Shown here piece by piece: positions 1,976-31,756 of a stretch of 64,000 nt of DNA. The stretch is taken from positions 631,001 through 695,000 of the forward strand of contig JACVTC010000091.1 of the NCBI GenBank assembly GCA_016946835.1, in the 5' to 3' direction. This DNA comes from Neocallimastix lanati (nom. inval.). Taxonomy: Eukaryota > Neocallimastigomycota > Neocallimastigomycetes > Neocallimastigales > Neocallimastigaceae. A program made the position numbers and the translations under genes. Numbering within the stretch: the stretch's first letter is position 1; each line of letters begins with the position of its first letter. The notes beneath the pieces were generated by a model that was given only the letters and a program-made list of their open reading frames with translations, made no database searches and was not told the DNA's origin.

Positions 1976-1980
1976 TAACT

Positions 1981-3325: not shown

Positions 3326-4267
3326 ATAATAATAACATTTATAATAATAATAATATTTATAATAATAATAACAATAATAGTAATAAAATTAATAATACTA
3401 AAAATGACGAGGTTGATGACATAATAAACACGAAACTAAATAAATTAAACGCGTTAAAATTGGATAATTTCAGAGAAAATAATAAATTAGTAAATAATAG
3501 TAATAGCAAATGCAAAACAAACAATAATATTATAATTACCAAAGAAGAAAATAAAAATAATATTAAAGGTAGTGCAAATATTAAGAAAAATCAAAATAAT
3601 AATATTGAGATTAATAGTATTATAATAATAAATAATAAGGAAAATATTAATTCAAATGGTAAAAATAAAAATATAATTAATAATTCTGAAAATATAAGAA
3701 ACAAAATAAATAGTCATACAATTGTAAAAGAAGAAATAAATATCAATGAATCTGTTAAAGTTGATAGCATTTTCAATAGAATTAATAAATCTATAACTCC
3801 TGGTTTGTTTAAGGAAATAAATATTATTAATAGTAACAATTCAAAAGTAGATAATATTCAAATTACTTCAAATGCTAATAAAAATGAACAATTTATAAAA
3901 AAAATTATTCAGTTAATAATATTATTAATATAAAAGAAAGAAAATTAATAATAATAATTTTCCAGTTGATTTTAGTAATATTATAAATGTAGATAGTGAT
4001 AAGAAAATAAAAATTAATAAAATTAAAAAAATAATTAAAATTCCATATATTTATATTCAAAATAATGATAAAAATAAAATAAATATTTATAAAATTATGA
4101 TGCCCAAACCTGAGATCGTGTTAAAGGATATTATTATTTATAGTAATAATCGCGTTGATACCAAACGAACGATTAGGAATTATAGATACAAAAGAAAATA
4201 AAATTTTAAAAATTATTATTTATATTAATTAAACCTTATATTTTCTTTTAAAAAAAATATATATATA
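3326..4267 (+). mobile_element. D2: body of an Asn-rich non-autonomous LTR element
   Basis: The encoded stretch is Asn/Lys-rich and matches the second half of the gag-like frame of D1 (38333-39838), including the C-terminal motif NNRVDTKR...RNYRYKRK near 4140-4200. The N-terminal half is not in the window. The copy is a broken fossil with at least one break. Its 3' end continues after element A at 27950, where the same atatag sequence resumes. Confidence 0.65.
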
Positions 4268-4285
4268 TGTAACAAAATCTTCAGT

Positions 4286-5075
4286 GGTATGGTTCATATA
4301 ATTTTAGGAATATAATAATAATTAACACAAATAATAAAATTACAATAAAAAAAAAATAATTTGTTTTAAAATCAATATTTATTTATTTAAATTTATAAAA
4401 GAAAAATAATAATATAATTATTTATTTAATAAAAAGAAAGTTATTGATTATATTTTATTTCACTAAAAATTACATGTATTTATATTTTTTTATCAAATTA
4501 AAATTTGTAAAGCCTAACTATTTTTTTAATAAACTAATTACTAATTATTTTAATAAATAAAACATTTAAATTGAAATTGAATTATTATTTTAGTTAATAA
4601 TATTATTGTTATAAATAGTAGTTATATATTATTGAATTATTAATTATTTAATAATAGTTTAATACTAATATATATAAAATAAAAATAAAAAAGATTATAC
4701 AGAATATTTTATTGTGGTTTAGTTAAATTTAGTAATTAAAAATAAATTTAAATTGATAACGAAAATTTTAATAACTAATTAAATAAATTTGATTATTTTC
4801 AATATAACATAATACAAAAGAAATATAATATTAATATATTAAGTGGGCAAGGACAATATTCTTGGCTAAAGATTTTTAATACATTATAATGGAATCGGAT
4901 CGATAATTCAAAAAGGAATTATAAGTTAATTAGTGATTTATTAACTTAAGATTTCTATTTAGTAATATTTGAAGAATATTAGAAAGTTCCAATTATATAG
5001 AATAGAATAATCTATAAGGTTAGAATAATTTATATTATTCTAGCACAATTAGTATTATTTGTTCATTCTGTATTA
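4286..5075. repeat. S repeat, copy 2 (probable solo LTR)
   Basis: About 790 bp, nearly identical to 1981-2767 and in the same orientation. It is preceded by tcagt (4281-4285) and followed by tcatt (5076-5080). The empty site in the A-family LTR at 27305 reads tcagt, so the right-hand copy differs by one base. It has no coding part. Confidence 0.75.
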
Positions 5076-5080
5076 TCATT

Positions 5081-6095
5081 GGTAGACTCGGGGTTGACAC
5101 TTAGATATTTAAAATCAAGCAGGGGGGACGGGTATTACCCTGCTTTGATTTTAAAAAAAAAAAATAATTCTTTATTAAAAATTATTTATTTTTTTTATTA
5201 ATATAAAAGTTTTTTTTTTATTTAAAGTACACATATTTAATTTTTAAGAAATTGTTACAATATTTATATTTTTTTATAAATTTAAAGTATAATTAATTGT
5301 TTATAATTTAAGTAATTTTATAGAATTATTGAATTAATTTTATATCAATAATTCATTTTTGTTTTAATTTTTATAAATATAATAATATAATATTCAAATA
5401 TAATTTAATTAAAAATAATTATAAAATAAATATATAGAAAATAGTTTTTACTATTTTCTTTGATATTTTTAAGTTAAATAAATTGTTTTTAAAGATTAAT
5501 ATAATAAATTTAATAATCTTTAATTATTTTAAATAATACTTGTAATTATTTTCAAAATAAAATAAAATTTTTATAATATTTAATTAATAAATTTGATAAT
5601 ATTTAAATAATAATTTTTATAATAAGTAAAATTTTTAATAATAATTTTTAATAATAATTTTAATTAATAATCTTAATAATTTTATAATAATATTTAATAG
5701 TTATAATATATAAATTTTTATAATAATATTTAATAATTTTAATAATTTTATAATATTAATAATTTATAATAATTTTTAGAATAATATTTAATTAATAATT
5801 TTAATAATTTTATAATAATTTTTATAATAATATTTAATTAATAGTTTTAATAATTTAGTATCTTAAAAGTATAATTTTAATATTTACAATTGCATTTTAA
5901 TATATACATATATTTAATAATATAACAATAAAGTAATTAATTAAAATTTATTTACATTATTTACAAGTGTAAATTAATTTATATCAAAATAAATTAAATT
6001 TACAATGAGGTTTAGGTTATGAAGAATATAGGAAAGTACAATTTAGTAAAGAATTATTAATAATAAAATAAAGGTTATTAATTCATTCTTTACCA
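5081..6095 (-). repeat. E1 3' LTR
   Basis: Near-identical partner of 12632-13647. On the - strand it starts tggtaaag next to a purine tract (complement of 6096-6110, agaggggg) that should prime plus-strand synthesis, and it ends gtctacc. Confidence 0.9.
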
Positions 6096-6118
6096 TGATG
6101 CCCCCTCTAAAACTCAAG

Positions 6119-9100
6119 CTACATCGAAGCTGAGTTAAACTTGACTATATTCTTCAAATGAACATTCCTATTCATTTGAATTCCAGAATTTGGATCAGCT
6201 AAGGTAACCGTATTAAATTGTTTTTTTATAACTTTAAGAGGACCAACAAAATAAGGTTCTAGTTTAGTTCTTGAAAAATTTCTAACTAGAACTAAATCAC
6301 CTTCCCTAATTCTTTTTCCCTCATTCAAACTATTCTTTTCCTCTCTTCTAGCAGCCCAATACTTATTTGCATTTTTAACATTTTCGGCTGCTTCTAAAGT
6401 CCATCGGTAATGATTTATAAATTTTTCTAACAACACTTCATCCGATGACTTATTAATATCCTTGGTAGGTCTAGCAGCAATATCAAAAGGCTGCTGATCC
6501 TCCCTACCATAAACCAACTCAAAACTTGAATGTTTTGTTACCTTATTTTTGGTAGTTCTAAGAGCCCATAAGGCGGATGGTAAAACTTCATCCCAATCCT
6601 TATTCTTAGAACCCAACAACCTCAATAACTTGCCGATCTCTTTATTACGGTTTTCCGTAAGTCCATTACTTTCAGGATGATATGTGGAAATAAACTTCAC
6701 ATATACATCATAGAGATCTAAAAATATTTTCGTCATGTCCGAGGTGAACTGAACACCATTGTCAGTTGTTATTACCTGTGGAACACCATGACGAGCAAAC
6801 ACATTAATTAAGAACTTAATCACATCCTGTGATGTTATATTTTCCGTGGGTTCTGCTTCAACCCATTTGGTGAAGTAATCCACCACAACCATAATATATT
6901 GATTATTATTCTTCGTTTTAATCAAAGGTCCAATAATATCTAAACCCAAATGTATAAAAGGACCTTCTACTTTAGTTGGAATATTTTCTGTAGGTTCTGG
7001 ATATGGTTGTGACCTATTCAACTGACACTTGTCACAACTTTGCACCACTCTTTTAATATCCATCACCATATTATTCCAATAAAAACTTTTACGAAGCCTT
7101 TGATAAGTCTTATAATATCCCTCATGACCTATCTTATGGGCTTCTAAAATAAGTTTTACTCTTTCCGTTTGATCAGTAATTAATTTACGATAGTCATTAC
7201 CATCAACAAAGTAATCTTCACCATCTATCGTAACAAATTTTTCATTTATAAAGTCTTTAATAGTTTTTGAAAGCAACTCTTCTTCTTCCTTTGAAGTTAA
7301 CTTAGTTGCCAATACCACAGAATCAGCTCTTTTCTTCATCCTAGATAATGCATCGGCTAACACATTTTTCTTACCCATTTGATATTGAATTTCAACACCA
7401 AGGGTACTAACAGTTAAGCACCACCTTGCTTGCCTAGCATTATTAGGTTCCTTATTTTTAAAGAAACTGATTAAAGGTTTATGATCTGTTATTACTACTG
7501 TTTTATTAGGATTTCCTAATATATAAGATTTCAACTTAGTAATACAATAAATTAATGCAGCTCCTTCCAAGTCAGTAATGCCATAATTTTTCTCGGCTTT
7601 ACTTAAACTTCTACTTATATAATGAACTGGATGTTCCTTTTTGGTTTCTAAATCTTCTTGGAGTAATACTCCTCCAATACCTTCATAGGAAGCATCCGTT
7701 CTAATTATAAACCTTTGATTAAAACTTGGATATTTTAAAATTGGAGCATTTATTAACTTTTCTTTTAACAGATCAAAACTTTGTTGATGTTCATTATTCC
7801 ATTTATATTTAACATTCTTTCTTAATAATTTACATAAAGAAGCAGAGATTTGAGCATATTTATCAATAAAGTTTCTATAATATCCTACTGCTCCAAGAAA
7901 AGATCGTAATTCATGAACATCAACAGGTGCTACCCACTCCTTGATAGCCTTAATTTTGCTATCCTGGGGACTTAAACCTTTCACTGATGCCTTATGACCT
8001 AAGACTTCTACTTCAGTCTGCATAAAGGCACATTTTTCAATGTTAATTTTCAATTTGTGTTGGCGAAATACTTCCAACACTTGCCTAATGTGGCTTATAT
8101 GTTCTTCTATACTCTTAGAGTATATTAAAATATCATCTATAAAGTTAAAAACAAACTTTCCTATAAATGGGAAAAGAATCCTATTCATTTCCCTTTGAAA
8201 TGTAGCTGGGGCTTCGGTTAAACCAAAAGGCATAACCTTGAATTGGTAGTTACCAAATTTTGTGGTGAAGGTGGTAATTTCTACGCTTTCCTCATCCATC
8301 AAAATTTGATGATAACCAGAATAAAGATCCATTGTTGTAAAAATCTGTGCCCCATCTAAACTATCAAATATCTCATCAATGTAAGGTAATGAATAAGAAT
8401 CTTTAACTGTTAAATCATTAACCTTACGATAATCAATACATAATCGCCATTTACCGTTCTTCTTCGGTACTAACACTATTGGCGATGACCATTCGGAACA
8501 AGAAGGTTCGATTAATTTCTTATTAATTAATTTAATTAATTCCTCCTTAAGTATATCCGACTTAAATTTAACTAATCTATAGCACCTTTGCTTAACTGGT
8601 TTCGCACCAGGAATTAAATTAATCTTATGTGGAGGAAGATCAGAAGGTGTTAATTCTTCTGAAGAAGTAGCAACTATTTCTAAGTTCTCCTCCAGAATTT
8701 TAATTATTTCATCTTTATATTTTTCATTTAAAGTATTTAGGAAAATTTCATGATGAATATATTGCTTTGGGGATAATCCTTCAATTTTCTTTAAATCATT
8801 CTTTTTGGAATCCTCGTCCAAAGCCTTAATCATACACAACAACTTTTCTTCATCTTCATAATCATTATTAATAGGTGCAATAACGTCAATTACTCCCTCA
8901 GGAGTAATTTGACACAAACTATATAAAATTGGGTGGATAAACAAATTATAATCAATTTGGGTTTTTAAGTTAATTAGAATATCGTAAAAAGGATCCTCCT
9001 TTTCTACTATTCTACAATTAACCATTAGCACAAGATTATTAATCTTTACTGGCACCCGAATGATATAACCTTCCGAGTAATCATCATTCTTAGTTGCCAA

Positions 9101-10168
9101 CCTAATTCTACCACGACTAATATCAATAGGTTCATATTCGGACGGAAGCTTATCTAAAAATTGTTGAGTAATTATACTTAAATTACTACATGAGTCAATT
9201 AAAGCCTTCCCCGAAACACCTTCAACTGTAACATCAACCATGGCAATATCCTCTTCACATGGTTCGTTACCTTTACTTTTATAAGTGTGGTCTATGTTAT
9301 TAACGACCACAGTCGTGGCTGACACATTATCCAACACCCCAGAGATATTAGATTGGTCCCTATCCAATTTAATACCCTGTGACACCTTATATCTTAATTT
9401 TGGAGCAGCATCCAATAACTGTCCAAAAGTAATATTGCAATGGGCAGAATTTAAATCTTTAAGAATATCATATTCTTCTTCCCCCGATTGCATCTTAATT
9501 TTCCTAGATACTCTAGAACTTTTATTTTCTTTTTGAGTATCTTTATCTTTACTAATTAACACCTTTGTTAAATCAATTACTTTATTATTCTCCTTCACAA
9601 TACTTTTTTTATTATCATTATTTTCTTTCATTAAATTTTTATTCTTTCTTTTATCATTATTTACATTATTTATAATAACTTCATCATTCACTAATGAATT
9701 ATTATTAATATTATCATTACTATTATCATTACTATGATTATTACTATAATTAGTATTACTATTGCTAGCTCTTTCATTATCACGAATTTGTCTTTCAATC
9801 TCTTTTTCTTTTTCAATTCGTGGTTGAGCTAGAATAGATGGTTTAATTTGTTTAACAATTTTATTACTTATATTATTTTCTTTTATTTCTCGTTCTTTCT
9901 GTTTCCGTAATGCAGGAGTTATTATAGGTTTAGGATTCTCTTTCAACGACTTATGAATCCTTTTCTCCGCACTACCTTCATCATTATTAACATCATAAAT
10001 TTTACGTTTAGATGCTCCTACTAAATAATCAACTTTCTTTTTATTAACCACCCTTTTATTAGCAGGAATTTCTTCAATATTAGAAAGACGAGAATTTTTA
10101 ATTTCTTTTTGATATTTAATTGAAGCTGCTTTATTAAGTATGGGAGAGCTTCTTATCCCATTACTCAA
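6119..10168 (-). CDS. pol: E1 pol: protease, RT, RNase H, integrase
   Basis: A frame of about 1,349 residues. After an Asn/Lys-rich, basic N-terminal 300 residues comes an aspartic protease with the motif LIDSCS (about 321), then reverse transcriptase with FIDDIL (about 676), RNase H with RTDAS (about 823) and TDHKPL (about 897), the H2C2 zinc module of integrase (HKIGH, then CDKC, about 1010-1045), and the integrase core with D about 1077, TDNG about 1134 and E about 1171. No chromodomain is visible at the C-terminus. The frame opens at the end of gag without an obvious ATG, as expected if it is made by the frameshifting known for Ty3 relatives. All core motifs are present, so it looks intact. 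Confidence 0.93.
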   Translation of the reverse strand: MSNGIRSSPILNKAASIKYQKEIKNSRLSNIEEIPANKRVVNKKKVDYLVGASKRKIYDVNNDEGSAEKRIHKSLKENPKPIITPALRKQKEREIKENNISNKIVKQIKPSILAQPRIEKEKEIERQIRDNERASNSNTNYSNNHSNDNSNDNINNNSLVNDEVIINNVNNDKRKNKNLMKENNDNKKSIVKENNKVIDLTKVLISKDKDTQKENKSSRVSRKIKMQSGEEEYDILKDLNSAHCNITFGQLLDAAPKLRYKVSQGIKLDRDQSNISGVLDNVSATTVVVNNIDHTYKSKGNEPCEEDIAMVDVTVEGVSGKALIDSCSNLSIITQQFLDKLPSEYEPIDISRGRIRLATKNDDYSEGYIIRVPVKINNLVLMVNCRIVEKEDPFYDILINLKTQIDYNLFIHPILYSLCQITPEGVIDVIAPINNDYEDEEKLLCMIKALDEDSKKNDLKKIEGLSPKQYIHHEIFLNTLNEKYKDEIIKILEENLEIVATSSEELTPSDLPPHKINLIPGAKPVKQRCYRLVKFKSDILKEELIKLINKKLIEPSCSEWSSPIVLVPKKNGKWRLCIDYRKVNDLTVKDSYSLPYIDEIFDSLDGAQIFTTMDLYSGYHQILMDEESVEITTFTTKFGNYQFKVMPFGLTEAPATFQREMNRILFPFIGKFVFNFIDDILIYSKSIEEHISHIRQVLEVFRQHKLKINIEKCAFMQTEVEVLGHKASVKGLSPQDSKIKAIKEWVAPVDVHELRSFLGAVGYYRNFIDKYAQISASLCKLLRKNVKYKWNNEHQQSFDLLKEKLINAPILKYPSFNQRFIIRTDASYEGIGGVLLQEDLETKKEHPVHYISRSLSKAEKNYGITDLEGAALIYCITKLKSYILGNPNKTVVITDHKPLISFFKNKEPNNARQARWCLTVSTLGVEIQYQMGKKNVLADALSRMKKRADSVVLATKLTSKEEEELLSKTIKDFINEKFVTIDGEDYFVDGNDYRKLITDQTERVKLILEAHKIGHEGYYKTYQRLRKSFYWNNMVMDIKRVVQSCDKCQLNRSQPYPEPTENIPTKVEGPFIHLGLDIIGPLIKTKNNNQYIMVVVDYFTKWVEAEPTENITSQDVIKFLINVFARHGVPQVITTDNGVQFTSDMTKIFLDLYDVYVKFISTYHPESNGLTENRNKEIGKLLRLLGSKNKDWDEVLPSALWALRTTKNKVTKHSSFELVYGREDQQPFDIAARPTKDINKSSDEVLLEKFINHYRWTLEAAENVKNANKYWAARREEKNSLNEGKRIREGDLVLVRNFSRTKLEPYFVGPLKVIKKQFNTVTLADPNSGIQMNRNVHLKNIVKFNSASM

Positions 10169-10863
10169 TTTAAACGTTTATTGTTTCTAATTTCCTTCCT
10201 ATTTTTCTCAACAATTGCTCTCAATTTTGGGCAATTGTTTTGATAATGACCTGGTTCTTTACAGAAATAACAAGCCTTTATTGTTAAACTTCTCATTTTT
10301 CTTGTTAATTCCTCTATGTCATTATCTTCTTTAGGTTTAATATTAACTTTTTGTTCTAATTTATTTTTAATAGGAGGATGAAAATTAACTCTATTATTAA
10401 AAGAAGATATATTTGCAGAAGGTGAAGGGGTAGAAGGATGTCTTCTTTGATTACTACCCATATAATTTAACCTATCTGCTTTTTCAGCAATTTTAAAGGC
10501 TTTTGACAGAGAAATGTTATCAAATAAGGTTAGACGTTTCCAGGCTTCAACATTGTTTTCAATGGAGTCTGTGTAATCTAAAACACTTATCTGACTTCTT
10601 TTCTTTTTATTTAATTTTAAATATAAAGTTTTATACTTAATATTAAAATCTTTGATTCTTTCATTTCTCTTAATTCTGAGAGCACGTAACTCTCTTAATA
10701 AATTATTTTGATCCTCCCTAATGCCATAAAATTCTTCTATAGCTTTTACAATTCTATTAAGGGAAGGATAAGCCTTATTCTTTTTATCAATTTCTTTATC
10801 TTCTTCATTATCATCATCCTCATCTTCATCATTAATATCCTTATAATTATCATAATCATCATT

Positions 10864-10897
<34 letters not shown>

Positions 10898-10926
10898 CTA
10901 TCATCATCTTTATTATTATCATCCAT
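10165..10926 (-). CDS. gag: E1 gag, main part with acidic tract and zinc knuckle
   Basis: A frame of 253 residues. It begins with a run of Asp/Asn, followed by a helical gag-like region (about 55-140) and a CCHC zinc knuckle, CYFCKEPGHYQNNC, near the end. The knuckle binds element RNA in the family. The frame ends a few bases past the pol start. The Asp run is encoded by an atc/cat trinucleotide repeat (10795-10925) and may be variable in length. Confidence 0.8.
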
Positions 10927-10929
10927 TAA

Positions 10930-11145
10930 TTATTGGATGACTTTCCTGGTTTCACCAATTGAGGTTAAAACACAGGCATAAAATATAATCTTGGAGTCTT
11001 CAACATGTTCAAGCTTTATCCAAAGCTCTAAATCAGACTTCCAAGTTTTAACATCTAAATTTTCTTTGGATATTTTTTCAATATCCTTAAGTTCCTTTTT
11101 TAAATCTTTAAAATTAATTGTACTCATTTTAAAAAAAAAAAACAC
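10930..11145 (-). CDS. E1 gag, N-terminal part
   Basis: A 71-residue frame just upstream of the main gag frame. Its content (a KTWKSDLELWIKLEHV stretch) resembles the start of a Ty3 gag, as does E2 gag (DSWMTDFVKIMELYD). An in-frame ATG lies 6 codons in (MSTINFKD). It is probably the start of gag in this copy, with about one break between the parts. Confidence 0.55.
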   Translation of the reverse strand: MFFFFKMSTINFKDLKKELKDIEKISKENLDVKTWKSDLELWIKLEHVEDSKIIFYACVLTSIGETRKVIQ

Positions 11146-11497
11146 ACTTTTAAAAAAAAAGAATAAAATAAAAAAATTGTTTTATTAATTATTTAATTGC
11201 TATATTTTTATTTATTTATTTATTTATTTACAATTAAAATTATATATTTAAGTAATTTATATCTCTAGTGAGACGTTTCCGGATAGTGTATATTTAATTT
11301 TGCTATATACACCCGTACTCCCCCTCCTGGACACTAGAATAAATATAAATTAATAAACTAGTTGGAGTGTTCACTATTCTTTCAAGCTAATAACCCCTTT
11401 CGTTTATCTTTACTTAAATAAAAAAAATATATACAATTATTTACAAAAAAAATTTTTTAAATATAGCAATTAAAAATATTTAAAAACACAAAAATTA

Positions 11498-11531
<34 letters not shown>

Positions 11532-12107
11532 TTATTTGTTATCGGTTATTATTACAATATTTACAATTACAATTACAATTACAATTATTATTAAGTTTAT
11601 ATAATTACAACTTAAAAAAAACAAATAAACTTAATTAAAAACAAGGTAAATTAACAAACCTAATACAACTTGAAAAACCGCTATCTATTACAACTGCCGA
11701 CCACGCAGAGGGACCTTAGTATTTCGGTATACTAAGTGAATTTGCCTGAGTCAAGTGGAGGAGCACCCAAACCGTGTTGAACGTATAATGGGTGATCTAT
11801 AGGGTAATTTCTGCTTCCCAACAGTATTTACCGCTATATCTAATCGGGGTTCGATTAGTTCGTAACCGGCCCCTCTCCAAACACCTGATTAAACCACTCG
11901 CAATTATAGAATTATCTATAACTGCTTAGTACGCAGTAAACTCAGTATATAGTTTTATTTGGAGCACGCGAAGACCAAATAAAACTGATGTTAATTTTTA
12001 TTACTACCACAACAACAACAATCACAACAACAACACCAACCACAACAACAACACAAAAACCGATAACAATAAAAAAAATTTGATGATGATGATTGTAAAA
12101 GTGTAAA

Positions 12108-12156
<49 letters not shown>

Positions 12157-12610
12157 TAATTTAATTTAATTTAATTCTATTAAATTTAATTTAAAAAAAT
12201 TATTCTCATAATTCCAAAAAAAAAATAAGTCCTAGTAGTTCCAATTTCCTTCTTGGTCTTCTCCTTCTTGGTCTCTTCTTCTTGGTCTCTTCTTCTTGGT
12301 CTTCTTCTTGGTCTTCTTCTTGGTCTTCTTCTTGGTTTTCTTCTTGGTTTTCTTCTTGGTCTTCTTCTTGGTCTTCTTTTTCTTGGTCTTCTTCCACTTG
12401 GTTTTCTTCTTTGTCTTCTTTTTCTTGGTCTTCTTCCACTTGGTCTACTTCTTGGTTTTCTTCTTGGTTTTCTTCCACTTGGTTTTCTTCTTGGTCTTCT
12501 TTTTCTTGGTCTTCTTCCACTTGGTTTTCTTCTTGGTCTTCTTTTTCTTGGTCTTCTTCTTCTTCTTCTTCTTCTTCTTCTTCTTCTTCTTCTACTTCTT
12601 CTTCTTCTTC
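11146..12610 (-). promoter_or_regulatory. E1 5' leader with GC-richer structured island
   Basis: This is the untranslated interval between the primer-binding site and gag. It holds long T runs (about 11500-11530 and 12110-12150), CAA-type triplets (12006-12055) and, at about 11690-11990, an island that is clearly less AT-rich than its surroundings. Three strong hairpins are visible in the island: 11715-11736 (8-bp stem, ttcggt loop), 11840-11858 (7-bp stem) and 11952-11985 (11-bp stem). A role in packaging or translation is inferred. Confidence 0.55.
12206..12610. repeat. Imperfect CTT/TTGGT repeat tract
   Basis: Low-complexity cttctt and cttggt triplets (gaa-rich on the element's sense strand). 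Open frames across it in several phases read only Glu/Asp/Gln, Ser/Trp or Leu/Phe repeats, so I do not call a gene. It lies directly after the primer-binding site of E1. Confidence 0.85.
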
Positions 12611-12626
12611 CCCGATATCTCCACCA
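12611..12626 (-). other. E1 primer-binding site
   Basis: On the - strand this reads tggtggagatatcggg, four bases inside the 5' LTR. The + strand reads as a tRNA 3' end finishing in CCA. The tRNA species is not identified. Element D1 uses the same sequence at 37776-37791. Confidence 0.75.
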
Positions 12627-12631
12627 ATTTT

Positions 12632-13647
12632 GGTAGACTCGGGGTTGACACTTAGATATTTAAAATCAAGCAGAGGGGGACGGGTATTACCCTGCTTTGA
12701 TTTTAAAAAAAAAAAATAATTCTTTATTAAAAATTATTTATTTTTTTTATTAATATAAAAGTTTTTTTTTTATTTAAAGTACACATATTTAATTTTTAAG
12801 AAATTGTTACAATATTTATATTTTTTTATAAATTTAAAGTATAATTAATTGTTTATAATTTAAGTAATTTTATAGAATTATTGAATTAATTTTATATCAA
12901 TAATTCATTTTTGTTTTAATTTTTATAAATATAATAATATAATATTCAAATATAATTTAATTAAAAATAATTATAAAATAAATATATAGAAAATAGTTTT
13001 TACTATTTTCTTTGATATTTTTAAGTTAAATAAATTGTTTTTAAAGATTAATATAATAAATTTAATAATCTTTAATTATTTTAAATAATACTTGTAATTA
13101 TTTTCAAAATAAAATAAAATTTTTATAATATTTAATTAATAAATTTGATAATATTTAAATAATAATTTTTATAATAAGTAAAATTTTTAATAATAATTTT
13201 TAATAATAATTTTAATTAATAATCTTAATAATTTTATAATAATATTTAATAGTTATAATATATAAATTTTTATAATAATATTTAATAATTTTAATAATTT
13301 TATAATATTAATAATTTATAATAATTTTAAGAATAATATTTAATTAATAATTTTAATAATTTTATAATAATTTTTATAATAATATTTAATTAATAGTTTT
13401 AATAATTTAGTATCTTAAAAGTATAATTTTAATATTTACAATTGCATTTTAATATATACATATATTTAATAATATAACAATAAAGTAATTAATTAAAATT
13501 TATTTACATTATTTACAAGTGTAAATTAATTTATATCAAAATAAATTAAATTTACAATGAGGTTTAGGTTATGAAGAATATAGGAAAGTACAATTTAGTA
13601 AAGAATTATTAATAATAAAATAAAGGTTATTAATTCATTCTTTACCA
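12632..13647 (-). repeat. E1 5' LTR
   Basis: About 1,016 bp, near-identical to 5081-6095. It ends at 13647 and is followed by tcatt. Confidence 0.9.
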
Positions 13648-13652
13648 TCATT

Positions 13653-14198
13653 GATACGTTATTTTTATAAGTATCAATGTTTTTGTGGTTAGCAAGATTG
13701 TATTAAATAAAAATATATTCTAATATAAAAATATATAATTACAATACACGTTAATATTAAAACAAAATATAAAAAAAATTATAGTTTTGTCGTTTTATTT
13801 ATTTATTTAAATTATTTATGTCGTAATACAAATTTTATAATAAAATGTTATTAAAGATCTTATTAATTATTTATTTCTAACTAACTTATTACTATTAAAA
13901 TTTTTGATAAATAAATATATTCCCCAAATATATTTATTTTAACCAATTTTATCTCTATTTTTTTCCAAATAAAAAAACCTCCCTTTTTTTTTAAAGAATT
14001 ATAATAATTTTTCTTTTATATTTCTAATTTCTAATTTACTATAAATTAAATCCTATTGGCTATTAACTAATTAAATAAATTTAATAATTTTTATATTACT
14101 ATTTATTATTATAATATACATATATAATTTAACTAATTATTTATTATATTTAATTTTATTTCTTGATAATATTCTCTTTTTATTTAAATACTGCATCA
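13653..14198 (-). repeat. E2 3' LTR
   Basis: On the - strand it starts tgatgcag and ends cgtatc. It is near-identical to 21593-22136, with a few small length differences in homopolymers. Confidence 0.9.
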
Positions 14199-14245
14199 AG
14201 ACGCCCCCGCTTAGCCTAGACTTCGTCCCTTGAAGTCCTAAAAAA
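14199..14245 (-). other. E2 polypurine region with conserved hairpin
   Basis: On the - strand a stretch ending gcgggggcgtct abuts the 3' LTR, as plus-strand primers do. The preceding bases gacttcaagggacgaagtc can pair as a hairpin. The same stretch recurs at 29376-29424 in front of the LTR of element F. Confidence 0.7.
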
Positions 14246-14284
14246 AAATATATATATATATATATAAATCCATTTAAATTTGCT

Positions 14285-14341
<57 letters not shown>

Positions 14342-14451
14342 AATTAATCTTTGTTCAAAAAAAAATTTTATATGAATTATTATTATTTTATTGGTCAATT
14401 ATTAATTCATTGAACATGTGAAGTTTATCAATGTAAATGTCTTATTCATGG

Positions 14452-14503
<52 letters not shown>

Positions 14504-15256
14504 TTAGGTATGTATATTATGTTATTATTGTTATTATTATTATTATTATAATATATTTAAATTGATGATTACATATTTAAATTGATAATTACATTCAATA
14601 ATTATTTTTATTAATTGATTTAATTTCATTGTTACCATTTGTTATATAACTATATATATATTTGGAAATATCGTATAATTTAGAATTTATAACGTCAAAT
14701 TTCTTTGTCAAATCTCATTATGTTCACATTATTTTCTTTTCGCCATGTATTTTTTTAATTATCATTAATATGTATTATAATCATTATTATCCAAATAAAA
14801 TTACAATTAAAAAAAATAAAATAATCTTTTGAATCAATGTCTTAATTTAGTGTTGAACCTATGGTTTTATAATATATACTATTATTATTTTTATATATTA
14901 TTATATTATTATATCTATCTATAACATTCATATTATTTTATATTATAATACTATCTATTTTGTTATTTTAGTTAATAATATATATTATTATACTATCTTT
15001 TTGTTATTTCATCTATATTTTATTATTTTACTCAATATATAATATTTATATTATTATACTATCTATTTGTTATATTATTAATATTTTATTATTTTACTCA
15101 ATATATAATATTTATATTATTATACTATCTATTACGTTATATTGTCTATATTATAGTTAATTATACTATCTATACTATCTATGTTTATATATTTTATTAT
15201 TATATCTAATATAATCAGTTCTTATATATAATTATTATTATTATTATTATTATTAT

Positions 15257-15297
<41 letters not shown>

Positions 15298-15406
15298 AAA
15301 ATTTATCAAATGTTAAGTAATGAATAAAATAAATTTCAAAATTATAAGTTTTAAATTCAGATTTTGAAATTTCAATTTTGAGGTTTTGAAGTTTCAATAT
15401 AATTTA

Positions 15407-15455
<49 letters not shown>

Positions 15456-15460
15456 CTGTT

Positions 15461-15508
<48 letters not shown>

Positions 15509-15525
15509 TATATATATATGTATCC

Positions 15526-18500
15526 TTATTCTTCTAAATTCAATTCTGTGAAATATGGAATAATATTTTTTAAATGAATGTTCCTATCAGCAACTTCCCC
15601 AGTTACTGGATCGCAAACTGTTACTGTATTGAACTCTTGTTTTACGATCTTTAGTGGGCCTGTGAAAAACGGATCCAGCTTCTTTCTGTTGAACAATTTG
15701 ACCAAAACAAGATCACCTGGCTTATACTTTGCTCTCATTCTTTTTATTTGTTTTCTACGATCTTCCCACAACTTGTTTGCTGTTTCAATGTTCTTTATTG
15801 CTTCACGGATCCAACGGTCATGGTTAATAAATTTCCTCAGCCAAAATTCTTCTTCGTCTTCCCAGTCATTTTTGGATTCGACATTAACAGTGAGTTCGAA
15901 TGGTTGTAAGTCTCTCCGACCATACAACAATTCAAAGCTGCTGTGTTTCGTAACTTCATTCTTGCACGTTCTTAAAGCCCAAAGAGCACTATAAAGTGTT
16001 TCGTCCCACTGCGAATCCTCTTCTCCGAGTAACCTGAGATACTTACCTATTTCCCTATTTCTGTTTTCTACTTCTCCATTAGACGAGGGGTGATAGGTTG
16101 CTACATAATTTACATAAATGTCGTTAAGGTCCAAAAATGCTTTTGTCTTATCGGAAGTAAACTGTGGACCATTGTCAGTAACTAAAATTTCAGGAACACC
16201 ATGTCGTGCAAATATTTTCTTGAGAAAATTTATTACATCTTGAGATTCGGCAGATTGTAAGGGTTCTGCTTCCACCCATTTGGTAAGATAATCTACTAAT
16301 ACAATTATATATCTATTACCTTTATTTGTTATAGGTAACGGTCCTATTAGATCCAACCCAACTCTTGAGAAAGGATATTCAGGTACAGTTGCAATATTTT
16401 CGGTATATTTATTTAATTTTTGTGGTCGACAAGTTTGACACTTGTGACAACATTTTATTAGTATTTGTATATCTTTTTTCATATTTCCCCAGTAGTAATC
16501 CCTCTTCAGTCTGCTATAAGTTTTATAAGCTCCTTCATGGCCTAGACCATGGGCTTCTTCGATTAATTTTTGCTTCTCTTCTTTGTTGTGAACTATTCTT
16601 CTCAGTTGTTCTCCTTGTTTAAGATATTCCACACCATCAATATTTATAATTCTCTTATTTATAAATTCATTCATAAATTTATTTATACTATCATTGCTAT
16701 TATTGGATAAAACATCATTGTTTACTAATGCATTTAATATTTCTTTATTTTCATGTATTTCTTTTGTAGGTAACCTAGATAAAGCGTCAGCAATAACGTT
16801 CTTCTTCCCCTCTTGAAATTGGACTTGAACATTTAATATTGATAGTTCAGTAACCCATTTAAGGTGGCGATTATTTGAAGGCTCTCTATTAGCAAATATA
16901 CTAACCAAGGGTTTATGGTCTGTATAAACGATAGTGGTAAAAGGGCTTCCACTAAAATAGGGTTTAAATTTTTTAACACAATGAAATATTGCTTTGCCTT
17001 CTAAATCAGTAACACTATAATTAGATTCAGCAGCGGAAAGAGTTCTACTTTCAAAATATATGGGGATTTCAATTGAATTTTCATTTGTTTGGAGAAGTAC
17101 TCCACCAAGTCCATCTCTGGAAGCATCTGTTCGGATAATAAATGGTTTAGAATAATCAGGAGGAGTTAAAATAGGGGCAACCGTTAGTGACATTTTTAAT
17201 TTTTCAAAGGCTATGTTGCACTTTTCGGACCATTCGTACGGTACATCTTTCTTTAAGAGGTTAAACAGAGGATTTGCAATCTGAGCAAAATTTTTAATAA
17301 ATTTCCGATAATAACCAACAGCTCCCAAAAATGATTTAAGTTGAGTGATATTTTTAGGGGGTAGCCAGTTAATTATAACTTTAATCTTATCAGGAATCGG
17401 GGCAATACCTTTTGTGGATAATACATGACCAAGAAGGACTACTTCTTCTTTGAAAAAAGAACATTTTTCTAAGTTTATTTTCAAACCATTGTCTGCTAGG
17501 ATTTGGAATACTTTAGTAAGATGAGTAATGTGTGATTCAATTGAGTCAGAAAATATTACTAAATCGTCAATGTAAACAAATAAGCATACTCCAATCAAGT
17601 CAAAAAAAATCCGGTTCATTTCACGTTGAAATGTAGCCGGTGCATTACATAGCCCAAACGGCATCACACAAAATTTATAGTTTCCAAACATCGTTGTGAA
17701 TGTTGTTTTATCTTTATCATCAGGATTCATTGGAACCTGATGATAACCAGAAAAAAGATCAATAGTAGAGAGTATTTTAGCGTTCTTTCCAATAAACATT
17801 AATATGTCATCAATTAAGGGCAAAGCATAGGAATCCTTAATAGTTATATTGTTTAAAGCCCTAAAGTCGACACACATTCTCCAGTCGCCGTTTTTCTTTG
17901 GAACTAGTACTACTGGAAATGCCCATGAAGAGTAGGATGGCTCTATTAGTTTGTTTTCTATTAGCTTAATCAAAATTTCCTTTAGAGCTTTTGTTTGCGC
18001 TTTGGATAAACGGTAAGCTTTTAACTTTATGGGTGAAGATTTTGGAATTAATTCAATCCTGTGAGGTAATAATTTTGACCTTCCTAAATCATCTGTTTTA
18101 ATTGCAACTACATTTTTAAATTTAAAAAATAATTTACTAATTTTATTTTTAAATTTATTAGGAACAGAAGATATTATTTCGTTAATTAAATGTTCTTTCG
18201 TGTTAGGTAATTCATTAGTGTTCGTAATTTCTTTATCATTGGTAACTGTAATTGTTAATAAAAAAGGTTCAGATTTTGTATTTTGATGTTTTTCTGTATC
18301 CTCATCATCCTTGTAAGTATTATTAAGATTGATATCATAAAATAGATCTGCTAGTTTAATGTAATTATTATTTTCATCAATATAATATAAAGTATCATCT
18401 ACTAAGTTAATATCAAATCTATTATTCTTTAGAGAATCAACACCAATTAAGATATCGAAAATATCATCCTTTTCTATTATTCTGAAATATTCATTAAAAG

Positions 18501-20025
18501 TTTTACTACCAATAGAAATCTGTAAGTCATAGATATCACTCTCTGTTGAAGAATTAGAGTACGCTTGAAATATTGTTTCAGAAATTCTACCAATAGAAGG
18601 TTTGTTGATTTTTAATTTATTTAAAGCAGAACGTGTGATAAAGTTGACACTAGCACACGTATCTAAAAATATTTCACAGTCATTATTTTCTACTTTACCG
18701 CAAACTTTAATTATTTTATGTTTTGTGATAACCGTCATCACATTTGTTATTGTTTGTTTAGGCGCTAATTTTAAAGCTTTTAAAAATTCTGTACGGAATT
18801 TTGGAAAAAGATCTAAAAGGTAAACTAATTTTGTTATTACATCAGTTGATGCAATTTCTTTTATTAAATCTTGAATATAATAATCACCAAATTTTTCCAT
18901 AAGTTTGATGTGTTTTTCAGGTTTCTTAAAAGAAGTTTCACTTTGCTCAATGTCGGTATTTATTTTCTTAGCTTTATTTTTTATATCTTTGATTTTTTCT
19001 TCCCTATTTTTACCTTTAACATTTCGAATATTTTTCTCTGTTATAAAGGAAGGATCAAGATATTCTAGTTTTTCTGTTTTACGATTTTCACTATTAAAGA
19101 CCATATCCGGGTTTTCCTTAATTATATTATTAAAATTCTTAGATCTACCAGGTAAAATATTATTATAATTTTTAGAGTTATAATTTTCTTTATCAGCATC
19201 ATTATCTTCAGATTCTTCAGATTCTTCTATCATAATTACATCTTCATTAGGTTCTATATCTTCTCGTTCAACCCTTTGGGTATTGCTTGTATTGTTATGA
19301 GTATTATCATCATTATTGGTGACAGTATTTTCTTTAAAATAGTCGTAAGTATTATTTTCCTTATTTTCATTAAAATCATTATTACTATTATAATTATCTA
19401 TAGTATTATTATTTTTATTATCATTATTCGCATTATCGTTATAATTGTCTATATTATGATTAATTTTATTATTATTATTCTTATTATTGTTCTCATATTC
19501 ATTATTCTTATTATTCTTATGATTATTAATATTATTATAATTATTATTAACATTTGTATTACTATAATCGATATTATTTTTATTATTAATATTATTATTA
19601 TAATTATTATTAATACTATTATTAGTACTAATTTTATTATCACTAGTATTATTATTAATATTATTATGACTCATAGCTGCCGTTTGTATTGGTTTTGGAT
19701 TGTCCTTTAAATTAAATCTCACTTCCTTTCTATTGTATGGTTTTTCATTATGTTTGTTTAATTTATTTCTTGAATTTCGAGTAGCGGCTGCTATAATTTC
19801 AATTGGTCTATTTAATGTATTTTGTGTAGTGTTACTATTATTGTTTATATTAAGGTCATTACATTTTTGTTTTTCTTTAATATTATTATTAATTATAGGT
19901 AATATTGTTTGATCGTCTACCATTGTCATTATATTATTATTATTATTATTATTATTATATGAGTCGTTATTTTTGAACATTATTTTATTATTATTATTAT
20001 TATATGAGTCATTATTTTTGAACAT
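15526..20025 (-). CDS. pol: E2 pol: protease, RT, RNase H, integrase
   Basis: An open frame of about 1,499 residues. The first 300 residues are extremely Asn-rich and begin with a tandem repeat of MFKNNDSYNNNNN. Next come aspartic protease (FLDTCAS, about 453), reverse transcriptase (VYIDDL, about 820), RNase H (RTDAS about 967, TDHKPL about 1037), the integrase zinc module (HGLGH then CHKC, about 1158-1192), and the integrase core (D about 1227, TDNG about 1284, E about 1317). It is closely related to E1 pol. No chromodomain is visible. The frame looks intact. How it is expressed from the mRNA shared with gag is not clear. Confidence 0.93.
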   Translation of the reverse strand: MFKNNDSYNNNNNKIMFKNNDSYNNNNNNNNIMTMVDDQTILPIINNNIKEKQKCNDLNINNNSNTTQNTLNRPIEIIAAATRNSRNKLNKHNEKPYNRKEVRFNLKDNPKPIQTAAMSHNNINNNTSDNKISTNNSINNNYNNNINNKNNIDYSNTNVNNNYNNINNHKNNKNNEYENNNKNNNNKINHNIDNYNDNANNDNKNNNTIDNYNSNNDFNENKENNTYDYFKENTVTNNDDNTHNNTSNTQRVEREDIEPNEDVIMIEESEESEDNDADKENYNSKNYNNILPGRSKNFNNIIKENPDMVFNSENRKTEKLEYLDPSFITEKNIRNVKGKNREEKIKDIKNKAKKINTDIEQSETSFKKPEKHIKLMEKFGDYYIQDLIKEIASTDVITKLVYLLDLFPKFRTEFLKALKLAPKQTITNVMTVITKHKIIKVCGKVENNDCEIFLDTCASVNFITRSALNKLKINKPSIGRISETIFQAYSNSSTESDIYDLQISIGSKTFNEYFRIIEKDDIFDILIGVDSLKNNRFDINLVDDTLYYIDENNNYIKLADLFYDINLNNTYKDDEDTEKHQNTKSEPFLLTITVTNDKEITNTNELPNTKEHLINEIISSVPNKFKNKISKLFFKFKNVVAIKTDDLGRSKLLPHRIELIPKSSPIKLKAYRLSKAQTKALKEILIKLIENKLIEPSYSSWAFPVVLVPKKNGDWRMCVDFRALNNITIKDSYALPLIDDILMFIGKNAKILSTIDLFSGYHQVPMNPDDKDKTTFTTMFGNYKFCVMPFGLCNAPATFQREMNRIFFDLIGVCLFVYIDDLVIFSDSIESHITHLTKVFQILADNGLKINLEKCSFFKEEVVLLGHVLSTKGIAPIPDKIKVIINWLPPKNITQLKSFLGAVGYYRKFIKNFAQIANPLFNLLKKDVPYEWSEKCNIAFEKLKMSLTVAPILTPPDYSKPFIIRTDASRDGLGGVLLQTNENSIEIPIYFESRTLSAAESNYSVTDLEGKAIFHCVKKFKPYFSGSPFTTIVYTDHKPLVSIFANREPSNNRHLKWVTELSILNVQVQFQEGKKNVIADALSRLPTKEIHENKEILNALVNNDVLSNNSNDSINKFMNEFINKRIINIDGVEYLKQGEQLRRIVHNKEEKQKLIEEAHGLGHEGAYKTYSRLKRDYYWGNMKKDIQILIKCCHKCQTCRPQKLNKYTENIATVPEYPFSRVGLDLIGPLPITNKGNRYIIVLVDYLTKWVEAEPLQSAESQDVINFLKKIFARHGVPEILVTDNGPQFTSDKTKAFLDLNDIYVNYVATYHPSSNGEVENRNREIGKYLRLLGEEDSQWDETLYSALWALRTCKNEVTKHSSFELLYGRRDLQPFELTVNVESKNDWEDEEEFWLRKFINHDRWIREAIKNIETANKLWEDRRKQIKRMRAKYKPGDLVLVKLFNRKKLDPFFTGPLKIVKQEFNTVTVCDPVTGEVADRNIHLKNIIPYFTELNLEE

Positions 20026-20108
20026 TGTTTTATTATTATTATTATATGAGTCATTATTTTTGAATATTATTTTATTGGTTTGGTTAATGGAAGTTGTCCT
20101 TCTCCCAT

Positions 20109-21425
20109 CTATTGGTTTAAATGTTTATTGAGCAATCCTTTTTCTTCCAATTCAGCCAATTGCTTAAATGTATAAGGACATTCTGAAGCTCTATGTCCAT
20201 TCATTGTGCAACGGTAACAATTTACATGGTTGTTATTATTGTTGTTAATTGAGTTTTTATTAGTTACTAATGTATTACTGACATTATTATTTTCTATCCC
20301 ATTGTTGTGATTATTTCCATTTTGATAATTAAAGGATTGAATCATATTATTTGTATTAAATTTATTATTGTTAAACATTTGGTTGTCATGTTCTTTATCA
20401 TTATTTGTTATATTAATATTGTTGTTCAAATTGTTTAAATAATGATTCATCTTATTGTCTCTTATTTCATTGGATGGCTGATTATTATTCATATTGTTCA
20501 TATTATATTTGTTATTATTATTCATATATTGATTAATATTATTACTGTGCCAAAATTTATTATAATTAAATCTACTATTATAACGATTTGTAAAATTTCC
20601 ATTGTTCATTTTATTAATATCATTTTTATTATTCAAGTAATAATTTGGATTATTATATGGATTACTCATGTGATATACATAATTTGAATTTCTGAAATTA
20701 TTATTATTGTTCCATAATCTAGATTTAGAATTCCAATTATTTCTTTCCTGGAATATATTATTATTATGGTTCATAGGTAATTGATTTAACTGTAAGTTTT
20801 CGTAGAATGGATGTCGCATTAGTAAGCTATTATCCGGCTGATTCTGAGTAAACATAATATGATTCCTCATATTATTAATTTCATTTCTTTGATTTATATT
20901 TGCTATTTCTTTTTCAGTCTCCTCAGCTACTTCTGCAATTTTACACGCCTCATTTATTGTATCACATTCTGCAACCATAACTCTTGAGCATGGAAATACA
21001 CGGGAGCTAATAGCATTCGTGTAGTCCTTTACAGATATAAGTCTTCTATATTCTAAACTGAGTTTATTATATAATTTTTTATATCTGTAATTAAACTTTT
21101 TAATTGATTCTTCTTGATTTATTTGTATTGTTTTGAGAACTGCACATTTATCATTTTCTGTAATGTGCAAATGTTCTTCAATTGTATTTTGAATTTCTTT
21201 AAATGTGGGATATCTCATTTCATCCCCTCGTCTGACTACCAATGATTGTAACGCTCCTTGAATATCTTCTTCCACAGCTTCCTTTACCCAAATAAAAATT
21301 CGCCTTGGTTCCATTATATCATAAAGCTCCATTATCTTAACAAAGTCGGTCATCCAGCTGTCTACATCTTTTCCATAATCAGCCAGATGTGGTAGCTTCC
21401 TTTGCAGTTTAGTAGCGTCAAACAT
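20109..21425 (-). CDS. gag: E2 gag with zinc knuckle
   Basis: 438 residues starting at an ATG (MFDATKLQRKL). Residues about 1-180 are a gag-like helical domain, about 180-400 an Asn/Met/Tyr-rich disordered region, and near 415 there is a CCHC knuckle, CYRCTMNGHRASEC. Capsid and RNA-binding roles follow from the family. About 80 bases separate it from the pol frame. Confidence 0.85.
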   Translation of the reverse strand: MFDATKLQRKLPHLADYGKDVDSWMTDFVKIMELYDIMEPRRIFIWVKEAVEEDIQGALQSLVVRRGDEMRYPTFKEIQNTIEEHLHITENDKCAVLKTIQINQEESIKKFNYRYKKLYNKLSLEYRRLISVKDYTNAISSRVFPCSRVMVAECDTINEACKIAEVAEETEKEIANINQRNEINNMRNHIMFTQNQPDNSLLMRHPFYENLQLNQLPMNHNNNIFQERNNWNSKSRLWNNNNNFRNSNYVYHMSNPYNNPNYYLNNKNDINKMNNGNFTNRYNSRFNYNKFWHSNNINQYMNNNNKYNMNNMNNNQPSNEIRDNKMNHYLNNLNNNINITNNDKEHDNQMFNNNKFNTNNMIQSFNYQNGNNHNNGIENNNVSNTLVTNKNSINNNNNNHVNCYRCTMNGHRASECPYTFKQLAELEEKGLLNKHLNQ

Positions 21426-21569
21426 TGTAAAAAAAAAATAATTACTTGATAAAAAAAAGAAAAATAAATGAAAGATTATATATAAAAAAAAAGTATTCTA
21501 TTATGATAATTATATTGTAATTATAATTTTCTTATTATTTTCATATTAATTTATTTGATCTTGCTTTCC

Positions 21570-21586
21570 CCCCACGTTGGGCGCCA
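21570..21586 (-). other. E2 primer-binding site, tRNA-Lys(CTT)
   Basis: On the - strand this reads tggcgcccaacgtgggg, which is the exact complement of the 3' end of eukaryotic tRNA-Lys(CTT) and the primer site known from several retroviruses. It lies a few bases from the 5' LTR. Confidence 0.85.
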
Positions 21587-21592
21587 AATTTT

Positions 21593-22136
21593 GATACGTT
21601 ATTTTTATAAGTATCAATGTTTTTGTGGTTAGCAAGATTGTATTAAATAAAAATATATTCTAATATAAAAATATATAATTACAATACACGTTAATATTAA
21701 AACAAAATATAAAAAAAATTATAGTTTTGTCGTTTTATTTATTTATTTAAATTATTTATGTCGTAATACAAATTTTATAATAAAATGTTATTAAAGATCT
21801 TATTAATTATTTATTTCTAACTAACTTATTACTATTAAAATTTTTGATAAATAAATATATTCCCCAAATATATTTATTTTAACCAATTTTATCTCTATTT
21901 TTTTCCAAATAAAAAAACCTCCTTTTCTTTAAAGAATTATAATAATTTTTCTTTTATATTTCTAATTTCTAATTTACTATAAATTAAATCCTATTGGCTA
22001 TTAACTAATTAAATAAATTTAATAATTTTTATATTACTATTTATTATTATAATATACATATATAATTTAACTAATTATTTATTATATTTAATTTTATTTC
22101 TTGATAATATTCTCTTTTTATTTAAATACTGCATCA
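21593..22136 (-). repeat. E2 5' LTR
   Basis: Partner of 13653-14198. It is followed by tcatt (22137-22141) and then by the interrupted LTR of element A. Confidence 0.9.
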
Positions 22137-22141
22137 TCATT

Positions 22142-22767
22142 TAGTAAAATTAGAACTTTGGTTCAATGGTTAGTTACATTGACCATGACCAATACTTCAT
22201 GGGTTCGACTCACACCTAAACATATTTTGCATAAATAATATTTTATTAATTATTTTATTAATTATTAATAATATCTTCTTGAATATTCTTTCTGTATAAA
22301 ATTATAGAAAGTTAAAGATTCTTTCGGTTTGTAATTTAACCGAAATGAATTTAGAAATTCTTATTATATAAATTATTTAATTCTTTTTTGATAAGATTCA
22401 TTTTCATCAATTAAAATCTATATTCTAGAAACTTTACATTATTAATTATTACAAACATATTTCTAAATATTTCTTTAAAATTATTTTTACATGTTAAAAC
22501 TGTTTTTCCGTTAAAAGTATAAATAGTGCGAACTTCACGAATGAAAATATTTTTCTTCGTGCTTTTATTAATAATAATTAACGTATAAGTAATTCGAAAT
22601 ATTACCTTGTTGATTAATATTAATAATTACTTTAAATTTTATAATTAATAAAAATATATTTCTAATAAAACGAATTATTTATACAGATAGTGTAAACCTA
22701 TTGAGTCTTCTCCCTTCTGTGTTTCTATTCCACGTTCCGCCGTTACAATAGAAGCACCTCCGTTACA
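22142..22767 (+). repeat. Element A 5' LTR, main part
   Basis: Continuation of the LTR begun at 4268-4285. It is near-identical to 27322-27949 and to both LTRs of A' (30585-31227, 35829-36471). It ends cgttaca, the inverted match of the tgtaac start. A repeated block, cgttacaata then aagcacct, straddles the LTR end. No tRNA primer site of the usual TGG type follows. Confidence 0.9.
22159..22211 (+). promoter_or_regulatory. tRNA-like A box and B box in the A-family LTR
   Basis: tggttcaatgg (22159-22169) and ggttcgactc (22202-22211) fit the tRNA A-box and B-box patterns at tRNA-like spacing. The same pair is found in the LTRs at 27340-27392, 30620-30672 (one base differs in the B box) and 35864-35916. 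The arms do not pair well enough for a real tRNA. The stacked insertions end 17 nt upstream of the A box. Confidence 0.65.
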
Positions 22768-23291: not shown

Positions 23292-24531
23292 GATAATATT
23301 AAATTAATCTTGTATTACCTTAACCCTTCAAAATTAATTCTAATATTTACCCAACAAAATTAATTAATAATTAGATAAATAATATTAAATTAATTTAATA
23401 AGAAAAAAATTTTTAATTTTTAGATAAATATTTTAGATTAATTTAGTGAATAAATCAATTATTTTAAGATAAAAAAAAAAAAAAAAAAAATACTAATAAT
23501 AATATTAATAATTATAATAATTTTTATTTTTAATTATTTTAATAAATTACTTGCTTGAAATAATAGCAAGAAAAACCTGTGCCATTTTATTTTTTATTTA
23601 TTTATTTAAAAAGCGTTTATACGAGCGAATAGAGCTCATATACAGAGTTAGAAGAATTGTCTTCTTTAGTGTTGCACTCGACGAATAGATTTGGTTCTAG
23701 ACTAGGTAAAACTCTATAAGAGAGCACCGTAGCCTATTATAAAGGAAAACGGTTCTAGGTTTGCAACAACTCTGGCGAATAAGGAGCTTACGTCACCGAA
23801 GGCGTAAGATTAAAACTATATAGTATTTTAAAATTTTATTTCGTGCTTACTCGCGGCACTAGTTATAATAGTACTGACGGTTTTTTTCTATAGTTGTGAG
23901 TCAATAGTACTATTCTATTTTATCAATTAATAATTTTATAATTAATATTATAATTTTATAATTTAGAAAACAAAGATTAAAATATAAATATAAGGTTTAT
24001 ACGACTTCCAAAGCGACAGAAGTTGGTCTCTGTTTTCGTAACATTTTAGTGTTCAGATACTATTGATATAGGGGAAAATAATTTGTTTTATTCTTTTCAG
24101 CTAACAATAAGTTAGACATAATAAAGAATCTAACAATATTACTTCCTTTTGTCTATAAGACATTAACAATCGATTTTATCTGCGTTATCACTAAAAGGCT
24201 AAAGGAACTTATCGTATAAAACTTTGATAGATTATATATTTAGTTGGTCCAATACTATATAATCTAGTTTATATTTCAGTAATTTTTGATAAATAATTAT
24301 AAAATAAAAATATTTAATTATAAAATATTATAAAGTGTTATTAAAATTTTGTGTTCTTATCCATTAACCTTGGAAACCTACCAATAAACAACTTTTGAAC
24401 TTTTGGAATCTCTACTACCTATCTACCTTTTGGATTATTGGAATCTCTACTACCACTTTGGGAATTTCTGGATTCTACCGCCTATTCTTTACCTTTGAAA
24501 ATTTATTCTACTCTACCTTATTTATTTCAAT
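22768..24531 (+). promoter_or_regulatory. Element A leader region
   Basis: 1.76 kb between the 5' LTR and the frame, without an open frame of its own. It has a pyrimidine-rich first part, A runs near 23260-23286 and 23471-23490, and a GC-richer island at about 23610-24070 that is nearly unchanged in A' (about 32140-32590). Visible structure includes an inverted pair cttacg/cgtaag (23787-23792 and 23803-23808). A structured RNA role is inferred. Confidence 0.5.
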
Positions 24532-27949: not shown

Positions 27950-28059
27950 ATATAGTTTAATTTTTAGCAAGGGCATTTCTGATATAAAATAAATATGTGT
28001 AGTAACATATTTGTATATTTAATAATAATTATTAAATATTAAATTTATATCTTTTTGAT
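27950..28059 (+). mobile_element. D2 3' end: purine tract and first part of 3' LTR
   Basis: It resumes D2 after element A. The sequence atagttta to agcaagggcatttct matches 39899-39926 of D1, and the D-family LTR starts at 27980 (tgatataaa). It is interrupted at 28059, and the rest of the LTR is at 36822-37137. Confidence 0.75.

Positions 28060-31719: not shown

Positions 31720-31756
<37 letters not shown>

Follow-up and report, generated by a model that had tools for sequence, protein, structure and literature searches.

LTR heads carrying Pol III-type promoter boxes as probable landing pads for other retrotransposon families in Neocallimastix lanati

The window is a stretch of 64,000 nucleotides of Neocallimastix lanati DNA, with a G+C content of 20.7%, from an assembly of 199 Mb in 762 contigs. 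It contains A element 1, a plus-strand copy of chromovirus A (4268-27949) that is preceded by ATATA at 4263-4267 and followed by ATATA again at 27950-27954. Because ATATA is present at both outer sides, the stack of insertions described here sits within a single A element. The first 17 bp of the 5' LTR (4268-4284, plus strand) end in TCAG. They are followed by a solo LTR of family S (4285-5075, minus strand, as inferred from a full-length S at locus L002), a full E1 element (5080-13647, minus strand), and a full E2 element (13652-22136, minus strand). E1 has LTRs at 5080-6095 and 12631-13647, a pol ORF at 6119-10177, and a gag-like ORF at 10165-10929; E2 has LTRs at 13652-14198 and 21592-22136 and ORFs at 15526-20124 and 20109-21497, all on the minus strand. 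Copies of a 4-bp duplication separate the members, with TCAG at 4281-4284 and TCAT at 5076-5079, 13648-13651, and, for the last copy, 22137-22140. The remainder of the 5' LTR (22141-22767) carries an A-box-like TGGTTCAATGG (22159-22169) and a B-box-like GGTTCGACTC (22202-22211), all on the plus strand. Further along this strand are the ORF of A element 1 (24499-26973), with capsid and chromodomain matches, and its 3' LTR (27305-27949), where the site is empty and reads TCAG, then TTAG. A element 2 (30585-36471, plus strand) is flanked by the duplication ATTAG, and the sites of both its LTRs are empty.

An earlier note on this DNA had described the stack as S, then E1, then E2 in the 5' LTR of A, with the letters tcagt at 4281 and tcatt at 5076, 13648, and 22137, and both the order and the letters are as claimed. 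Its empty site, tcagt, is also borne out, since the three further A LTRs of the window show TCAG followed by TTAG. The LTR is split where the note placed the break, and the left fragment is 17 bp (4268-4284) instead of 18. Both promoter boxes are present, the B box at 22202, but the spacing of 17 nt does not hold; the A box starts at 22159, which is 22 nt from the E2 edge and 18 nt past the 4-bp duplication. The three families do share one orientation, E1 and E2 being on the minus strand and S inferred to be, and this direction is opposite to that of A and of the tRNA-like unit.

The note had also held that all three elements used the same five bases. The shared site stands, with a duplication of 4 bp. 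The T in fifth place in the stack is identical to the base with which the TG ends of the elements begin. One pair of E2 edges elsewhere (L067/L066) shares CTTT and one pair of E1 edges (L030/L029) shares TAAT; in both, the fifth bases differ, and a duplication of 5 bp was therefore dropped in favor of 4 bp. Two other E2 pairs (AAAC and TTCA) are compatible with either length, and the pair L055/L056, which may not be one element, has no matching duplication. The target duplication of Ty3 is 5 bp.

The LTR pair of E1 differs at 1 of 1016 positions and that of E2 at 1 of 545, while the pair of A element 1 differs at 6 of 627 in the portion right of the site. These values fit an older host with young guests. 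An order of E1 and E2 based on LTR divergence was considered and dropped, as 1/1016 and 1/545 are too close. The letters suggest a history in which the S insertion was the earliest, a G-to-T change followed in its right duplication, and E1 and E2 then used the changed copy.

A second stack occupies positions 1-2771. It consists of the right part of an E1 LTR (1-629, minus strand by likeness to E1), E2-like LTR sequences (634-1975, no strand assigned) with TAAC at both sides, and an S solo LTR (1980-2767, minus strand) with TAAC at 1976-1979 and 2768-2771. The last TAAC precedes an LTR of family B, which is related to the LTR of A. It runs on the plus strand from 2772 to approximately 3300, the right end not being fixed, and contains A and B boxes at 2789 and 2833, respectively. 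The presence of another stack in this window, on TAAC, together with the genome counts below, places the stack in A element 1 beyond chance.

The two A ORFs of the window (24499-26973 and 33027-35495) encode 825 and 823 aa. Both have a capsid match and a Chromo match (4.8e-18) at the integrase C-terminus. Neither copy gives a reverse-transcriptase match, and a complete pol is thus absent from both. Each keeps a single long ORF from capsid to chromodomain nonetheless. E1 and E2 have Ty3/gypsy-type reverse transcriptase (RT) and integrase by Pfam. The closest PDB match of the E1 RT piece is Ty3 RT (4ol8, 2.1e-64), and the E1 integrase piece matches foamy-virus integrase (3.3e-32) and Ty3 (5.2e-23). 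The Ty3 alignment reaches query residue 350 of 355 in E1 and chain residue 1444 of 1547. The E1 integrase has no room for the Ty3 chromodomain and ends where that domain would follow. The E2 integrase piece matches foamy-virus integrase (7.6e-28), and Ty3 is absent among its matches within the 1e-15 limit. Pfam, which may miss a vestigial domain, gives no chromodomain after the integrase of E1 or E2. Two other features of the window are an inverted repeat at 49122-57924 (49122-51391 versus 55633-57924, 93%), which encloses a MULE-transposase ORF (51991-53442), and a broken copia-type element on the minus strand at 40555-48461, with RVT_2 and rve matches in separate ORFs.

A and B belong to a group of LTRs with a similar head. 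In family C, the LTR precedes a gag-like stretch that shares 71% identity with A over 90 residues. D and E have the head layout of the group (site, boxes, and TATAAATA), with a coding region linked to neither. The GTTCRA core and TATAAATA are present in all five families. In A and B, a T-run lies 23-24 nt past the start of the B box, but T-runs are common in this DNA. The earlier note had spoken of a landing pad that mimics a tRNA gene. This holds for the promoter boxes; it does not hold for the RNA, as no tRNA model fits the two heads. ARAGORN calls no tRNA in the window, and Rfam tRNA is absent among the matches up to E 10 for the A and B heads. A tRNA cloverleaf in the LTR heads was thereby ruled out.

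The right edges of E1, E2, and S were followed through the genome with 40 scored places per family, from first-look candidates numbering 599, 415, and 576, respectively. The loci read are a sample and not a census: 30 of E1, 30 of E2, and 20 of S from the first 28 rows. The eight S rows left out are the window copy, three inner LTRs of paired full elements, C68 (counted as an A head), one beside a tandem S, and one from each of two close pairs. Of these 80 edges, 24 lead into the element's own interior (E1 9, E2 10, and S 5) and 56 face outward (E1 21, E2 20, and S 15). As classed by reading, 16 of the 56 face a Pol III-box unit, tRNA gene or tRNA-like, and the other 40 face another LTR-like start. 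The earlier note had proposed to plot the distance between insertions and boxes; in 13 of the 16 Pol III-type flanks, the edge and the B-box core are 64-69 nt apart. The remaining three are at 74 nt (a degraded unit), 76 nt (a tRNA with a long variable arm), and 88 nt. The sample supports the note's reading, and plain DNA was found at none of the 56 outward edges.

Among the 16 Pol III-type flanks, ARAGORN calls a tRNA gene at the edge in seven (L028, L037, L047, L052, L053, L056, and L066), two of which have no settled identity. L095 and L100 are tRNA genes by eye, and L012 resembles the L066 tRNA, yet has no ARAGORN call. L013 and L042 are degraded-looking Pol III-type units. The other four are LTR or LTR-like heads, i.e., the window's own A head (L040), L029, L094, and L108. 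In the 40 LTR-like flanks, TG lies exactly 4 bp from the edge in 25, and five are irregular (L009, L017, L033, L041, and L050). Starts of S, E1, E2, or E2-like sequences account for 13 of the 40, in identical orientation throughout; by eye, 19 represent a few recurrent starts and eight are single. Insertion into LTR heads is also seen from the left. An A-LTR start lies to the left of one E2 (L065), which is thus a copy in an A head, and in four of eight S LTRs, window included, the left edge directly adjoins the LTR start of A or B.

In the 56 flanks, which came from searches that set out from a single edge, no reversed neighbor of E1, E2, or S was recognized. Two candidate matches, both E2-like (L114 and L120), emerged when ends in reverse orientation were scanned for. 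One fixed orientation for every family was dropped, as L151 is the reverse of the TGTTAAGG start. The LTR family with this start (L151, L020, L022, L032, L049, and L061) seems to lie in the site both ways, unlike the E1, E2, and S samples. As a control, 20 full-length A elements were chosen as LTR pairs approximately 5.3 kb apart. Their right flanks (152-165 bp) contain no B box (0/20). With a looser core, there are matches in 3/20 on the same strand and 1/20 on the other, none at 64-69 nt. One A insertion, judged by eye from its right flank (L138), seems to lie in an E1-like gag gene, so A would also insert into other elements.

Occupancy was then counted from the side of the target. The 28 bp of the A head right of the site occur in 271 copies (up to 2 mismatches), and with 13 bp more on the left in 138 copies (up to 3 mismatches), a continuity of 138/271. 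An interior LTR control gives 303 and 294 copies (294/303), and reversed-pattern controls give 0 matches. The difference between head and interior has a Fisher p of ~1e-41, a value that overstates independence, since the copies are related and divergent ones are scored as broken. Twenty A heads were read, every fifth of 100 listed starting from the third. Nine are occupied, eight are empty 3' LTRs, and three are empty 5' or solo LTRs. The nine occupants are E1, S, X (four times), W, Y, and one without a match, and their LTR ends lie 20-24 nt from the A box. For family B, 40 copies were scored and the 20 after the window copy were read: eight are occupied, with ends 21-26 nt from the A box, and 12 are empty, six of these being 3' LTRs. 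Three of the eight B-head occupants (L149, L157, and L165) match no named family.

A general tRNA search gave 63 scored places, 57 of them with one score, and the initiator tRNA was used instead. Contig C555 holds 34 of the 63 matches, mostly with one identical score; one is tRNA-Arg(TCT) by ARAGORN, and the contig appears to carry a large tRNA array. A 40-bp pattern of the initiator tRNA occurs 54 times, and 20 genes were sampled across contigs, excluding C434, which was known from E2. Thirteen of the 20 have an LTR-like end, chosen by eye, 14-18 nt upstream. Five of these ends are sequence-matched to A- or B-head occupants, namely S (L109), V (L111), X (L119), Y (L122), and W (L124), and the other eight were assigned by eye. 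Sequence matches thus place five families, S and four unnamed ones, at initiator-tRNA genes as well as LTR heads, and E1 and E2 occur at both LTR heads and Pol III-type units by their flanks. Six U6 genes were found, and the four over the cut-off were read by eye; none has an LTR edge.

With a probability of roughly 80%, E1, E2, S, and at least four further LTR families target Pol III-type promoters in the manner of Ty3, and the heads of chromovirus LTRs serve them as landing pads. Integration would take place ~20-26 nt upstream of the A box of an internal promoter and leave the boxes intact. The LTRs of the chromovirus group (A, B, C, and the similar D and E), bearing such a promoter near their start, would act as landing pads beside true tRNA genes. 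TFIIIC on the boxes may place TFIIIB upstream, and the integrase may be tethered to TFIIIB, as is suggested for E1, E2, and S by analogy with Ty3. The heads may be bound or transcribed by Pol III. Every insertion would leave a new copy of the 4-bp duplication beside the boxes, so later insertions would stack there, and the element nearest the boxes would normally be the newest. Counted against the targeting view are the weak A box in C, D, and E; boxes and heads no better conserved than the best other LTR parts; the absence of LTR edges at the four U6 genes; the lack of room for a Ty3 chromodomain in the E1 integrase; and the eight of 13 initiator-tRNA ends assigned by eye only.

It is unlikely that the integrases instead read the DNA sequence of the LTR start, with the nearby boxes incidental. 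A and B do have much of this start in common (TGTAACGAAA...). However, the letters at the insertion point differ among A, B, C, D, E, and tRNA genes, while boxes at a near-fixed distance are common to them, and the same families also occur at initiator-tRNA genes. The near-fixed distance and the differing letters fit a Ty3-like tethering. Nor does it seem at all probable that few insertions occurred and that interrupted LTRs were multiplied by retrotransposition, duplication, or gene conversion. The nine A heads hold six or more different occupants, and X lies in three registers (23, 22, and 21 nt). In favor of such copying, L070 and L083 share one X end in one register and may be one event, and L117 and L123 are near-identical. 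Every member of the stack is a young, high-copy repeat, the kind of sequence that an assembly artefact could join, but the duplications agree at all joints, bar a single G/T difference, as they do on either side of the whole A element, and similar joints are found on many contigs. Such an artefact is extremely improbable.

A further reading, which we regard as doubtful, concerns what the chromovirus group gains. The group may keep a working Pol III promoter as bait or as a TFIIIC boundary, with self-renewing pads on which insertions stack in time order. As bait, the head would channel competing retrotransposons to a harmless point upstream of the group's own Pol II promoter; as a boundary, it would act through TFIIIC in heterochromatin. 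In either version, the hundreds of copies would make up a self-renewing set of landing pads that mimic tRNA genes, where other families pile up in the order of their arrival.

The targeting reading has clear precedents. Ty3 inserts in a narrow window upstream of Pol III genes (PMC8632968 and PMC5911963). TFIIIC, sitting on the A and B boxes, brings in TFIIIB, to which the Ty3 intasome binds, with a chromodomain as the ruler (all PMC8632968). Ty3 of S. cerevisiae is alike in its Pol III-upstream window, and the E1 RT is closest to Ty3 RT. The differences here are the 4-bp duplication, an E1 integrase without a chromodomain, and the heavy use of LTR heads; without room for that domain, E1 would need another ruler. 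DGLT-A is an LTR element found ~15 bp upstream of tRNA genes (PMC5006619), and Tj1 lies within 12 bp upstream of them (PMC4600332). DGLT-A inserts in either orientation (PMC5911963), whereas E1, E2, and S show one orientation in the sampled flanks. An LTR landing pad is not among the features described for DGLT-A or Tj1 in the accessible portions of these sources.

The promoter-bearing LTR also has precedents. Helenus/TRIMp3 elements, found in fungi as well, contain tRNA-like A and B boxes inside the LTR (PMC10886601), and by this standard A likewise has both boxes within its LTR. Helenus is miniature and non-coding, whereas A is a long element that bears gag and chromodomain ORFs, with the TATAAATA motif in its LTR. 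Use as an insertion target is not among the features given for Helenus/TRIMp3 in the accessible portion of the source (PMC10886601). Cassandra is alike in having a Pol III promoter inside the LTR and differs in that this is a 5S rRNA promoter, in plants, in a miniature element. Like the Skipper-type chromoviruses (PMC5006619), A has a chromodomain at the integrase end. In contrast to them, A is a target and has no Pol III preference of its own (0/20 right flanks).

Ty3-type targeting and tRNA-like sequences in LTRs are therefore already known. As far as the open-access literature was searched, what is new is a chromovirus LTR group heavily used as a landing pad by other families; no report was found there of LTR heads as targets of other families, or of Neocallimastix, retrotransposons, and tRNA genes together. 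Retrotransposons with a preference for tRNA genes are regarded as having found rare safe places in the host genome. In this case, other retrotransposons provide such places too, with hundreds of copies, roughly half of them apparently used. This links Ty3-type targeting with the presence of Pol III promoters in LTRs, each of them a known phenomenon. True tRNA genes and diverged LTR heads are natural replicates for the same insertion machinery and may reveal which promoter features count. The stacks on one duplication may, in addition, record the order of insertion.
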